Shown one piece after another: positions 152 to 5,876 of a stretch of 5,876 bases of DNA. The notes below the pieces were generated by a model, which worked only from the letters and a program-made list of their open reading frames with translations, ran no database searches and had not been told where the DNA came from. Position 1 is the first letter of the stretch. Every line of letters starts with the position of its first letter. The DNA is from a bacterium (GTDB taxonomy: Bacteria; CSSED10-310; JAJRTK01). Position numbers and translations under genes: made by a program. Location: contig JAJRTK010000109.1 of the NCBI GenBank assembly GCA_024278345.1, positions 1 through 5,876 on the forward strand, in the 5' to 3' direction.

Positions 152-172
152 GGAGGGGAAATCTCTTGCAAC

Positions 173-178
173 GGGGGA
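173..178 (+). promoter_or_regulatory. Ribosome binding site deciding the mobA start
   Basis: GGGGGA lies 8 nt before the ATG at 187. A competing GGAGGGG at 152-158 lies 7 nt before an in-frame TTG at 166, which would add seven residues (MQRGKLS). I prefer the ATG because it is the standard codon. It also puts the nucleotide-binding loop about ten residues from the N-terminus, as is usual for MobA proteins. Confidence 0.45.
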
Positions 179-186
179 AACTGAGC

Positions 187-786
187 ATGGCCGAGAAATC
201 GTTCCCAGTTGCCGGCGCCCTGCTGGTGGGCGGCCGGTCCCGCCGGATGGGCCGGGACAAATACGCCTTGAGGCTGGGCGGGATGACCCTTGCCCGGAAG
301 CTGGCCGGAACTCTGCGGGAATTGACGGAGGAGGTCCTTCTTGTTGGCAATCGGACTCCAGAGATTCCAGGTTGCCGGCGGGAGGCGGATCGCCACCCGA
401 TCCGCAGCTCTCTGACGGGCCTTTACACAGCGCTGGAAGCCTCCCGCTATCCGCTGGTTCTGGTTTTGCCTTGCGACACTCCGTTTGTGGAGCTGTCGCT
501 CCTTCGCCTACTCCTGGAAGCGTGGGAACCCGGTGTGGATGTGGTCGTTCCCGAGAGTCCTCACGGGCTGGAGCCGTTGACGGCGCTCTATTCGGCCCGG
601 TTGGCCGGTGCTTTCCGGGAACGCCTCGACGCCGGGCGTCCACGGATAGGGGATGCCCTGGAAGGACTTGTGTTGAAACGCCTTTCATGGCCGGAGCTTC
701 AGGATCGCGGGATCGGGTTGCGCCAATTCACAAACCTCAACACTCCGGAAGATTTTGCTCTGGCGGAGGCTAGCGAGGGCGAATGA
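187..786 (+). CDS. mobA: Molybdenum cofactor guanylyltransferase (MobA family)
   Basis: This 199-aa cytoplasmic enzyme should transfer GMP from GTP to molybdopterin-bound molybdenum, making the guanine dinucleotide cofactor used by DMSO-reductase-family enzymes. The N-terminus carries the family nucleotide loop in a LVGGRSRRMGRDK motif (residues 13-25), with R20, G22, D24 and K25 present. D68 followed by SSLTGLYTAL (74-83) occupies the place of the usual D...GPLxGI..AL segment, though the GPL is not kept. LPCDTPF (94-100) matches the family metal-binding CDMPF motif. EPLTALY (about 130-136) and a C-terminal NLNTPED (183-189) are also typical. Length is normal for MobA. The gene ends in TGA and its last 17 bp overlap the 3' end of the convergent gene. 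No other molybdenum gene lies in the window. A related cofactor nucleotidyltransferase such as MocA is possible, but NLNTPED favours MobA. Confidence 0.9.
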   Translation: MAEKSFPVAGALLVGGRSRRMGRDKYALRLGGMTLARKLAGTLRELTEEVLLVGNRTPEIPGCRREADRHPIRSSLTGLYTALEASRYPLVLVLPCDTPFVELSLLRLLLEAWEPGVDVVVPESPHGLEPLTALYSARLAGAFRERLDAGRPRIGDALEGLVLKRLSWPELQDRGIGLRQFTNLNTPEDFALAEASEGE

Positions 787-2299
787 TGCCGAAGCGGACG
801 TTGACGTCGATCCAGGGAAAGACGTGCCGGTCCTTGGGCGTGTCGTAGATGGCGAGCTTGCGATCCCGTTCCGTGACAAGGAGCTCCGTTTCGTGGAGAA
901 GCGGGGACCAATGGTGGGTGCGCTGCACGGCGCTTCCCATGTCGCAACGGCGGAGAAGGTCGGCCTGCTGGTTCCGGACGTTTGCCGGGAAACCGATGGA
1001 TTCGCGGGCAGCGACCTGGGTATCGTGGTGGGAGGTCTCGATTTGGCGGGTCAGGACATTGCTCAACCACTCGAGGGCCTCCGGTAGAGTTCCCGGTTCG
1101 ACGATGCCGCGAATGGTGCTGGTGGGGACCGTGCTCTTGAATAGCCCTTCCCGTTGGAGGAACTGGACTCCGGTGTGTGAGAGGGAATCGCTCCCCAGTT
1201 GGCTGTGGACGAAGGTCTTGGAGTCCAGGGCGAGGCGGAGGCCGTGGAGCGCCATTTCAATGGCTGGTTTCGAGAGGAGGGCCTGGTAGTGTTTCAATAT
1301 TTGTTCGCCCTCGACGATGGCGCGGAGGAGCTTCAAGTCTCCACAGGTGCCATGAGCGGATCCGTTGGCCGCGCTGAAAAGGAGGTTTCGGCACCGGAGA
1401 CCCCGGGCCAGGGCTTGCTGCTCGGGAGTTCCTCCCAGGAGCCGGCTTTCCGCTTGGAGTATGTTGGCACAGCCCTGGCTGTAGCCGAGAGTACCCCAGG
1501 GAGTGGAGGCTTGGCGAACCGCCTCTTCGATGCGGGCCGCGTTGTAATCCAAGGAGCGTGCCGTGGCCGTATCGGCGCGGATGGTCCTGATGCCTCGCCG
1601 CTGGAAGAGGCGCTCGTAAGCGGCTTCTAGTTCTCTGCCCCCAGCGCCTTCCGTGATGACGCCCATGGCACTGATGACCGTGAAATCGTATTCGGCCTCC
1701 GGTGGATCGAGAAGAAGCCGCGCGAGGGGGTCCCGGAGCAGTTTCGCTCGGTCTTTTCGATAATAGTAGAGGGCTTCCACGACGGTTTCCAGCAATCCTT
1801 GCTCGCTGGTGGGCAGCTTTTTCCCCGTTCGCGTTTCGAGCCATCGGGGAACGCTGTCGATCCCTTCCTGGGCGTTCCGGACCACGGAGAGAACCATGAG
1901 AGCTTCGTAATTCCTGCGCCAGAACTTCTTGAACCAGCGGCGCTGGAAAGCCTCCCCACCGATATCGAGGAGCTCCGCGCATGCCTGGAAGGCGGCTCGG
2001 TACGCGGAGATCGCTCGGGTCTCGGCCCGGGACTTTGGGGAACTGAATCCGCACTCCGTGCCCAGAGCATCGGCGCGTTCCACCGCCTTGCGGGCCCTGT
2101 CTTCGGCCTTTTTTAGAGGACTGGTCCGGTGTCGTTTGACCGCAAGCTGGAGCGGCGGGCGGGCAATTTGCAGGTGGCAACGGAATGCCACGTAGGCCTG
2201 GCCAGCGATGAGAATCCGTTCCGCCGTATTGCTCAGTTCCTGGTAATAGCTCAGCTTTGCCCAGCGGCCGCCCGCCAGATAGTCTTCCAGGCGGGGCAA
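770..2299 (-). CDS. Alpha/beta-hydrolase-like protein, possibly the C-terminal part of a larger protein
   Basis: The frame gives 509 aa from a TTG codon and ends in TAG. Residues 1-200 are mostly helical and rich in basic residues and aromatics, and match no family I know. From about 205 the pattern fits an alpha/beta hydrolase: strand DFTVISAMGVITEG, strand GIRTIRADT (236-244), then WGTLGYSQG, giving a G-x-S-x-G elbow with S274 as candidate nucleophile. A later strand ends in NGSAHGT (312-318), resembling the SPHxGT segment of lipases. THHWSP near the C-terminus puts H462 or H463 as candidate catalytic histidine; D447 or D453 could be the acid. The usual HG oxyanion motif after the first strand is absent. 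There is no signal peptide or clear membrane helix. The start is doubtful: TTG at 2299 has only a weak GGA 6 nt upstream, and the sole alternative after the preceding in-frame TAG is CTG at 2323. It may be the C-terminal third of the upstream protein. Confidence 0.75.
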   Translation of the reverse strand: MPRLEDYLAGGRWAKLSYYQELSNTAERILIAGQAYVAFRCHLQIARPPLQLAVKRHRTSPLKKAEDRARKAVERADALGTECGFSSPKSRAETRAISAYRAAFQACAELLDIGGEAFQRRWFKKFWRRNYEALMVLSVVRNAQEGIDSVPRWLETRTGKKLPTSEQGLLETVVEALYYYRKDRAKLLRDPLARLLLDPPEAEYDFTVISAMGVITEGAGGRELEAAYERLFQRRGIRTIRADTATARSLDYNAARIEEAVRQASTPWGTLGYSQGCANILQAESRLLGGTPEQQALARGLRCRNLLFSAANGSAHGTCGDLKLLRAIVEGEQILKHYQALLSKPAIEMALHGLRLALDSKTFVHSQLGSDSLSHTGVQFLQREGLFKSTVPTSTIRGIVEPGTLPEALEWLSNVLTRQIETSHHDTQVAARESIGFPANVRNQQADLLRRCDMGSAVQRTHHWSPLLHETELLVTERDRKLAIYDTPKDRHVFPWIDVNVRFGIIRPR

Positions 2300-2323
2300 C
2301 TGGAATCCGAGTCTCTCTGACAG

Positions 2324-2326
2324 CTA
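2324..2326 (-). other. In-frame amber codon between two long open frames
   Basis: TAG here ends the 1062-aa upstream frame. The very next codons continue open in the same phase for 517 codons down to the TAG at 772-770. Translation across it reads RAPLDLIS, stop, LSERLGFQLPRL, with no ATG or GTG in the downstream part near the junction. A CAG-to-TAG transition would explain it, giving Q at this position. Readthrough, a sequencing error or a true gene boundary with re-initiation at TTG 2299 remain open. Confidence 0.8.
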
Positions 2327-5300
2327 CGAGATGAGGTCGAGAGGGGCTCTTAGGCATGGTTGCGGCATGTTGAGAAGGGCGTTGAGGACACTGGCCAAGA
2401 CGCGAACACTATTTCCTGAGATCTCCACGAGAACGGCCAGAAGGTAGTCTCTGGGCCTCGACAGAATGTGGTCAAGGAGCATCTTCTGGTTGAGCTGAAC
2501 CGTTCGGCCTCGAAAAACGGAGGCCAATCCGGCTTGGAGAAGGACTGCCACGTCGGCTGGCCCCAGGATGCTTGCCTGGGCTTCCTGTCGTTCCGCGGCA
2601 AGGGTTTCCCCCAGAAAAAAGGCGATGGCCAGGGCTTGCGGAGCGAAGGCAAGGCCGCCATAGCTTTCGGAAATCTCCTTGATCTGGCGCTTGAGCTGCC
2701 GGACGTGTTCTAGTCGGATGCGTTGAGCTGGATGCCAGTTTTTTGTTTCTGCCCGGAGGATGAAATCCACCTGTTCCAGGGCCAGGCAGGGCGCAAGCCT
2801 GGTGACGATGAGGCGGAAATCTCCGGGCAGAGGTTCGCGGGATTCCAAAGCTCGATTGATATCGGCCGCTGACGGAATTTCTTCCAGATCGCTGGCAAAT
2901 TCTGGAAGCTGCTCCAAAGGTGGGGATTGCGTGACTTCCAAGGGAGGAAGTGGCTCTGTCGGCGCCAGAAGGTGGGAGAGCCACCGGACCAGCCGGTCCA
3001 CTTCGAACTCGTAGTCATGGGTTCCGAGGGCCTTGTACAGAAGTTGCTTCGTGGCGAAGACGTCGAGGCCGTTACCATCGGTGACTTCCTTGATGAGTTG
3101 ATAGAGGGGTTCCGCCAGCTCCGCGCTATCCACCAGGAACCCGGAAAGGAGCCTGGCTAGTTTCGGGCCGGGGATGGCGTCGCCGGGGCGTTCAATCTTT
3201 TCTCGTTCGACTGTTTTCCGAATGCGCTTGGATAGGTCGAAGAGCGCCCTGCCCAGGCGGTGTGCGTCAGCGGAAAAGAGCTCTACCGCTCCCAGAACGC
3301 GGCTCATGGCCTCTTCATTGGCCAGGATCTCCGCCAACCGGTGAGGATCGGCCCCGGGGTTGACCAGCGCGTTGAAGAAGCGGCCATCGTAGAGGTGTCC
3401 GTCTTCGCCCTTGACCTCCAGGCCACCGGCGGGGCTGAGCTCCATGAGAAATTTGCCCTGCCGAAGCTCCGGAACGAAAATTTCCAGGCTTCGATCACCG
3501 TGTTCAAGGAGCGGAGATCGCCCGTGGAGATCCCAAGAAATGTCGATTTTGGCTCTTCCCAGCCCCGACGCGGCAAGAATCCCTTCCGCGAGCCGAAGAT
3601 CAAGCCGCGCGGGCACCGGCACCAGGAGGCGCCTAGAACCCAGAGCGAAGGAGGCTCGTTGCAGCACGAGGCTCAGGCGGCTTCCGCTGCAATCGAGGGT
3701 CGGCCTCTTTCCCCCGTCTAGCGTCAGCGCCCCCACGAGGCCGAAAGCAGCCTGTCCGCCAAGATGGAGAAGGAGCTTTCCCTTGTCGATATCGAGCTCC
3801 GGAATCGCCGGAACGGGCCTAAATCCTTCCAGTGCGCCAGTGGCCTTGCCCGTTATTTCAAATCGCACCGGAGTCTCGTCAGAAGCAGTCACGCGACCCT
3901 CAAGCGTCACCAGAAGGTTTTTCGGCTTCAGCATCAGTGCGCCGTCGCTGAATTGGGTCCCGCCAGCAAGCTCCGCCATGCAGTTGAAGCTCGCCTCAAG
4001 CCGTTGCCCGGCTGTCATCTTCTTCCCAAGCTCGATTCTCCCTTTACCTTTCCCAGCTATGACCGCCTGGCGGATCTTTCCGGCGATATCGAGTCCCCCA
4101 AGAAGCTGGGTATGGCGAACCGTTCCGGCGAAGGCCAAATCGGGAAGGCGGGAGTTTGGCTCCATCGAGCCCGCCCAGGATACCGAGAGACCTGTCCCTC
4201 GGAAATCCGAAGCCAGGAGCCCCCACGCCAGCCGCCCGACGATCCCGAGCCCTCCCCGGGCCCCTGGCTCCATCCGCTGAACGCTGGCCTTGAACCCGAA
4301 GCGGGAGATATGGCCATCAGCCCAGAGCCGTGCGTCCTTGGAGAAGATCTCCAGGGCTTCGGGGCTCAACCGGATCTCGAGCCCGGAGCGAAGGTGAATC
4401 CATTCCGGCGCCTTGACGGCTACCTCCAAATGCCCTTGATCCGGCAATACCGCGCCCAACTCCAGCTCTGGAGAGCGACCGGCCAGCTCGACGTTTCCAT
4501 GGACGCGCGAAACCAGACCGGCCAAGGCGTCCGCCAGGGTTTCCAGCCTTACGGGAAGAGGCGCCAGCCTCCCCACGGCCAGCGGGGAATCTGACAGCAG
4601 CTTGTGGAGATCCCCGTGAAGGGGCGGCAAGATCCCGTACGGCAAGAGGAGCTTTTTGAACGGCACGCGGAGGCTCTTGAAGAACTCTACTTCACCGGAG
4701 AAGAGCAGATTGACAGCGCCGGTCCCACCAATTTCCACCGGCCGTGCCGTGACGCTTGCCAGGTGGACACGGGCAAGTTCGCCCAGCTCCGAGGCCGCGG
4801 CTTTCACCAGTGACCAGAGCAACGGTTTGGCGCCAGTCCCGCCAGCCAGATCCAGGCCCAACGGCTCAAGCCAGTCCCGGAGGGACTCCAGCGCATTTCC
4901 AAGCTGCAATCTTGCCGCCGCGGCCGCCGGGATCCGCTCTAGCCAGTCCAGGGCCGCCATGGAGTCTGTCCCTTCGAACAGCAAGGGGATGCGGGCCAGG
5001 ATCGGCGGAACATCTTCCATGAGAAGCGGCGAGGAAAACTGGATCTCGAGCTGCCGCAACCGGCTGCTCGTGTGGCTGGGCCCCGGCTTGGGAGCCGCAA
5101 TGCCAGGACCCGCTTCTTCCCCCCGGCTCCCGGGTGCCCCGTTTCTTCCCGCCGCCGGGATTTCCCCCGTTCGGTTTGCCAAGACCTTGAGGGAGCAACA
5201 GGTTCCGGGCGCAACCTGCAAACGGATGGAGAGATCCTCGAAGAGGGGGATCTCATGAGATCCGGCCGCCAGATCGATCTCTAGATCAAGGCTCGCCAGG

Positions 5301-5512
5301 TCAAGAAGGCGCGGCAAGTTTCCCGCGGTCTCCACCAGCAGACTCCGAGGCGGCAGGAGAGGTTGAAACTCCGGTGTCTGGGCCGAGGATCGCGCCAGCT
5401 CGATCCGAAGGCACGGAGGGGAGTTTGCTGAGACGGTTCGTTCCGCTGGATTCTTTGCCGGCGTCATTTTCTTCATCCCCAGTTCGTGGATAGCCAGGTG
5501 CAGCGCCTCCAT
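2324..5512 (-). CDS. Large protein of unknown function, beta-rich centre and helical C-terminus
   Basis: I do not recognise this protein (1062 aa from the ATG at 5512). In order: a mixed N-terminal part (1-117); a Gly/Pro/Ala-rich linker (about 118-150); a mixed helical segment with AAAAA and several Leu-rich helices (about 155-335); a long run of alternating hydrophobic strands separated by Gly turns (about 336-696); and a helical region to the end (about 716-1062) with an acidic, Pro-rich break near 850-885. The strand region loosely recalls AsmA/TamB-like beta-groove proteins, but there is no N-terminal membrane anchor or signal peptide, so I do not assign that family. The open frame extends to an ATG at 5629. 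I chose 5512 because codons between 5629 and 5513 are AT-ending (three ATA) and repeat-bearing, while G/C-ending codons begin at 5512. ATG 5467, with GGGGA 8 nt upstream, is another candidate. The gene ends at an amber codon followed by an open frame in the same phase. Confidence 0.75.
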   Translation of the reverse strand: MEALHLAIHELGMKKMTPAKNPAERTVSANSPPCLRIELARSSAQTPEFQPLLPPRSLLVETAGNLPRLLDLASLDLEIDLAAGSHEIPLFEDLSIRLQVAPGTCCSLKVLANRTGEIPAAGRNGAPGSRGEEAGPGIAAPKPGPSHTSSRLRQLEIQFSSPLLMEDVPPILARIPLLFEGTDSMAALDWLERIPAAAAARLQLGNALESLRDWLEPLGLDLAGGTGAKPLLWSLVKAAASELGELARVHLASVTARPVEIGGTGAVNLLFSGEVEFFKSLRVPFKKLLLPYGILPPLHGDLHKLLSDSPLAVGRLAPLPVRLETLADALAGLVSRVHGNVELAGRSPELELGAVLPDQGHLEVAVKAPEWIHLRSGLEIRLSPEALEIFSKDARLWADGHISRFGFKASVQRMEPGARGGLGIVGRLAWGLLASDFRGTGLSVSWAGSMEPNSRLPDLAFAGTVRHTQLLGGLDIAGKIRQAVIAGKGKGRIELGKKMTAGQRLEASFNCMAELAGGTQFSDGALMLKPKNLLVTLEGRVTASDETPVRFEITGKATGALEGFRPVPAIPELDIDKGKLLLHLGGQAAFGLVGALTLDGGKRPTLDCSGSRLSLVLQRASFALGSRRLLVPVPARLDLRLAEGILAASGLGRAKIDISWDLHGRSPLLEHGDRSLEIFVPELRQGKFLMELSPAGGLEVKGEDGHLYDGRFFNALVNPGADPHRLAEILANEEAMSRVLGAVELFSADAHRLGRALFDLSKRIRKTVEREKIERPGDAIPGPKLARLLSGFLVDSAELAEPLYQLIKEVTDGNGLDVFATKQLLYKALGTHDYEFEVDRLVRWLSHLLAPTEPLPPLEVTQSPPLEQLPEFASDLEEIPSAADINRALESREPLPGDFRLIVTRLAPCLALEQVDFILRAETKNWHPAQRIRLEHVRQLKRQIKEISESYGGLAFAPQALAIAFFLGETLAAERQEAQASILGPADVAVLLQAGLASVFRGRTVQLNQKMLLDHILSRPRDYLLAVLVEISGNSVRVLASVLNALLNMPQPCLRAPLDLIS

Positions 5513-5612: not shown

Positions 5613-5683
5613 GGTCCGACTATCTCCATTCGTCTCGCCGGGACCTATCAAATTGTCGTGTTTTTGCTTTACAATTTTCTTCG

Positions 5684-5876
5684 CCGAAAGGGTGGCACCG
5701 GCGCCCAGGCCGAAAAGGTGGCACCGGCATCTTGCCGGTGTAGACCGAAAAGGTGGCACCGGCATCTTGCCGGTGTAGACCGAAAAGGTGGCACCGGCAT
5801 CTTGCCGGTGTAGACCGAAAGGGTGGCACCGGCATCTTGCCGGTGTAGACCGAAAAGGTGGCACCGGCATCTTGCC
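5684..5876. repeat. 35-bp tandem repeat array with a hairpin in each unit
   Basis: Units start at 5684, 5710, 5745, 5780, 5815 and 5850. The four from 5710 to 5849 are complete at exactly 35 bp. The first is a 26-bp divergent copy and the last is cut by the window end. Each full unit holds a perfect inverted repeat, CACCGGCATCTTGCCGGTG (8-bp stem, TCT loop), at 5722-5740, 5757-5775, 5792-5810 and 5827-5845. The only variation among full units is A or G at unit position 7. There are no unique spacers, so it is not CRISPR. Because 35 is not a multiple of three, open frames across it on the minus strand are by-products of the repeat. Similar GCACCGGCAT...GCCGGTG repeats are, to my recollection, common between genes in Verrucomicrobiota. 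Confidence 0.92.

Follow-up and report, generated by a model that had tools for sequence, protein, structure and literature searches.

Do two long frames that follow one another on the same strand encode two proteins, or are they the parts of one gene broken by a stop codon, and, if the latter, is that codon a lesion or a signal that the cell reads? The question is raised by the window (the whole 5,876-nucleotide stretch of DNA analysed here), in which the minus strand holds a frame of 1062 aa and, in the same phase, another of 517 codons, with nothing but the TAG at 2326-2324 between them, an arrangement that our analysis confirmed as the first-pass annotation had described it. The relevant features are as follows.

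2327 to 5512, minus strand: N-terminal and middle part, residues 1-1062, a frame that aligns with homologs.
2324 to 2326, minus strand: in-frame TAG, which takes position 1063 when the two parts are joined.
773 to 2323, minus strand: C-terminal part, residues 1064-1580, 517 sense codons, conserved to the end as judged from the frame and its homologs.
770 to 772, minus strand: TAG, the natural stop of the long gene, coinciding with the usual C-terminal end of the family.
166 to 786, plus strand: MobA-like nucleotidyltransferase neighbour gene (no part of the interrupted gene or its story), tail-to-tail with the long gene and overlapping its end by about 17 bases.

From the ATG at 5512 down to 2327 the upstream frame comprises 1062 sense codons, and an alternative in-frame ATG at 5629 would give 1101 aa. 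The downstream frame has, as had been remarked earlier, no ATG or GTG near its beginning: the earliest possible start after the TAG is the TTG at 2299, the earliest GTG lies near 2190, and there is no nearby ATG. Codon usage and GC3 are similar on both sides of the TAG (GC3 of 0.66-0.73 before it and 0.70-0.78 after it). Chance does not explain why the downstream frame is open, since its identity to closer relatives is 47-58% from end to end.

Both ends of the window carry repeats. Positions 1-137 are rich in short inverted repeats and recur in near-identical form at about 40 genomic sites, many of them contig ends; this segment belongs to an abundant interspersed repeat, and the assembly breaks at its copies. 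At the opposite end, positions 5710-5876 hold 4.8 copies of a tandem 35-bp repeat that reaches the contig end and contains the palindrome-like CCGGCATCTTGCCGG; related repeats are also present on contigs 504 and 270.

A scan of bacterial genomes turned up one close relative, on a contig (L010) from a genome entered as Deltaproteobacteria bacterium S10.Bin075. There a single frame of 908 codons aligns unbroken to residues 728-1577 of the window protein, with 47% identity, and has a sense codon where the window has the TAG; the N-terminal half of this relative sits at the end of a different contig from that genome. A profile built from the window protein and this relative was run on 377 genomes of the phylum to which the relative's genome belongs, a different phylum from that of the window, and detected the family in 33 of them, in most cases as one frame of some 1,540-1,670 codons. 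Within the matched parts of the homologs in those 33 genomes there was no stop. The first-pass annotation had proposed a single protein of about 1,580 aa in preference to two genes, and had suggested searching for homologs that align across the junction; this proposal is borne out by the 28 homologs that cover the site, all of which cross it in one open frame and have a sense residue in the TAG column, and the window protein is itself a family member by sequence, at full length and in a single alignment through residue 1063. Homologs occurring as two separate genes split at the junction, which had been named as the observation that would speak against one protein, were found in none of the 33 genomes.

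The residue found at the TAG column varies (Leu in nine homologs, Phe in seven, Ile in three, two each with Ala, Met and Val, and one each with Lys, Arg and Glu), so that the interruption falls at a position of low conservation, occupied in most homologs by Leu, Phe, Ile, Met or Val. Gln occurs in 0 of 28, and the earlier idea that the TAG arose by a C-to-T change in a Gln codon is therefore unsupported.

In its full-length membership the window protein resembles the other members of this uncharacterised family of about 1,600 aa, but the window copy differs in carrying the TAG and in its phylum: no family homolog was found in seven other genomes of the window's own phylum, and the long gene may for that reason have come from outside it. 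No conserved gene neighbourhood of the family was seen in the loci compared. Across the loci examined (L088-L116), the family is unannotated and strongly conserved at its C-terminal end, with the motifs GYSQG, HDTQV and HHWSP.

After the TAG, the window keeps all 37 invariant columns of the homolog alignment and 81 of the 83 whose conservation is at least 90%. The ratio of identity in the C-terminal part to that in the middle part is 1.34 for the window, compared with 1.38 +/- 0.19 among intact pairs, so that decay is not visible. The TAG is the one lesion in 1580 codons, and no frameshift accompanies it. Since the C-terminal part is intact, the interruption is very recent, absent from the cells or tolerated by them. 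The earlier suggestion that any inactivation is recent or the codon tolerated thus holds, with sequence error as a further possibility.

These observations make it very probable that a single gene lies here, encoding a stand-alone protein of about 1,580 aa, and that one stop codon arisen by chance disables it in the sequence as assembled. That stop would be a nonsense mutation of recent date in the population sampled, or else a wrong base in the draft genome. The gene has intact relatives, a single lesion and little decay, as is characteristic of recent nonsense pseudogenes and of assembly errors. Like nonsense-type bacterial pseudogenes and genes fragmented by assembly errors, it has one in-frame stop within a conserved gene; it differs from them in that the lesion is single and decay is not visible, which argues for an event that is very recent or for an error. 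As the sequence is written, residue 1062 would be the last one translated, and the cell would not produce the C-terminal domain with its GYSQG, Asp and HisHis residues. Provided that the TAG is real and is not read through, the product would be non-functional because the domain that holds the most conserved residues would be missing.

Other readings of the locus were weighed against this one. An old pseudogene from which constraint has gone would also have an interrupted frame, but a lone lesion without a frameshift, followed by conservation typical of the family, makes this very unlikely. Even less probable is the arrangement as two genes, in which ribosomes, perhaps re-initiating, would start the second at TTG 2299 or close to it and make the C-terminal domain by itself. 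That TTG stands 8 codons past the TAG, but no GGAGG-like ribosome site precedes it, a start there would cut into a stretch kept by the homologs ahead of the conserved PRLxDYxAGGR, and no homolog is divided at this point. The remaining alternative is that cells make the full protein by reading through the TAG, whether with a suppressor tRNA, under a leaky code of the lineage or as pyrrolysine. This is unlikely. It would account for the lack of decay downstream, and it draws some support from lone in-frame TAGs in other conserved genes of the genome, including single-copy atpB and the Q-loop of an ABC ATPase.

Against readthrough stands the translational machinery. The genome has RF1, scoring above the cut-off and without an internal stop. 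None of 48 tRNA matches has the anticodon CUA, although one may be missed in a genome that is 87.9% complete, and pyrrolysyl-tRNA synthetase (PylS) is absent above the cut-off of 178, the two weak matches scoring no more than 23 bits. A tRNA-like gene at L073:473-545, with a 6-base loop (TTTGTC), has an unclear anticodon and is not a CUA suppressor. TAG is, moreover, a common stop in this genome: among about 894 genes called with a stop in the 1.48 Mb sampled, 243 (about 27%) end in TAG, and backup stops are no closer after TAG than after TAA. It ends tig directly ahead of the ATG of clpP, and it ends the long gene itself. All bacterial stop reassignments known at the time of a 2021 eLife survey involved UGA, and the survey also cautions that a pseudogene with an in-frame stop may look like a case of reassignment (PMC8629427). 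The window resembles pyrrolysine and other amber-recoding systems in having an in-frame TAG inside an open coding frame, but it differs from them in that no PylS or CUA tRNA was found, TAG is in general use as a stop, and the sites imply different residues.

The last point comes from surveying about 1.7 Mb of this genome, a draft of 550 contigs, for stops inside coding frames; about 1% of the sampled genes have a lone in-frame stop. For comparison, a published study of 64 prokaryote genomes put pseudogenes at 1-5% of gene-like sequences (PMC522871). Lone TAGs were seen in genes with APH, ABC, kinase, ThiF and DUF2887 domains and in atpB; TAA interrupts one kinase gene and probably one gene for a GTPase-like protein, and there was no clear case of TGA. 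The tally of about 7 TAG, 1-2 TAA and 0 TGA, where codon usage leads one to expect 51% TAG, amounts to a weak excess of TAG (P about 0.06-0.1). In the OppD/DppD-type ABC ATPase the TAG replaces the Q-loop Gln (L117:5411, which is base 5411 of contig 262), and in two Ser/Thr kinases the stop lies in the SPEQ region (TAG at L127:17752 and TAA at L190:8289); we take the original residue at the ABC and kinase sites to be Gln from these well-known motifs. The atpB gene, encoding ATP synthase subunit a, has its lone TAG at L215:5193 (base 25193 of contig 239), where 26 of 29 aligned homologs have Glu. Over these few sites the residues of the respective families at in-frame TAGs are thus Gln, Gln, Glu and hydrophobic, not one consistent amino acid, which points to random nonsense changes or consensus errors and not to one new meaning of the codon.

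Amber recoding was accordingly rejected as the main explanation on the evidence of the tRNAs, PylS, RF1, stop usage and the survey of in-frame stops, and neither programmed nor general readthrough is supported. Of the three causes that the first-pass annotation had put forward, recent mutation and sequence error remain, while a translated amber has become unlikely. A real nonsense codon in single-copy atpB should be harmful, implying either that assembly errors are common or that there is some suppression. It is quite improbable, slightly more so than readthrough at this one TAG, that the lineage tolerates in-frame TAGs through leaky, context-dependent readthrough by which AtpB, the oligopeptide-transport ATPase, the kinases and the long protein are all made. 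It is difficult to see how a cell could live with a TAG in atpB that is real and unsuppressed, and, the genome being a draft, consensus base errors have to be seriously considered for the window as well.

A possible role for the intact protein is suggested by its C-terminal domain, which holds its most conserved residues. Three features of this domain stand out.

1472 to 1486, minus strand: GYSQG motif, residues 1343-1347, invariant; a possible alpha/beta-hydrolase nucleophile elbow with Ser1345.
1022 to 1024, minus strand: Asp1497 in the motif HDTQV, conserved; a possible catalytic-triad acid.
911 to 916, minus strand: His1533-His1534 in the motif HHWSP, invariant; a possible triad histidine.

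Together these give the pattern of GxSxG with a later acid and His, and the intact protein may well be a serine hydrolase acting via Ser1345, to judge from its motifs. Cutinases, which are serine hydrolases with GxSxG, carry GYSQG. As in the alpha/beta-hydrolase superfamily, GYSQG follows a likely beta strand and precedes the conserved Asp and His-His, but the window protein differs in having no significant match to Pfam, NCBIfam or PDB profiles, the likeness coming from the motifs. Searches of both halves against Pfam, NCBIfam, PHROGs and PADLOC gave no significant match, and PDB profile searches gave none; a match to the FSH1 profile (E 0.16) appeared in one family member only. AlphaFold models from two-row alignments, with pLDDT of 34 and 31, were too poor for use.

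For annotation, our findings call for entering both frames as a single interrupted gene and not as two proteins. The presence of lone stops even in single-copy atpB is a warning about base quality in this draft genome or, less likely, a hint of readthrough. The analysis of the interrupted gene also brings to light an unannotated family of proteins of about 1,600 aa, whose hydrolase-like C-terminal end is very conserved.
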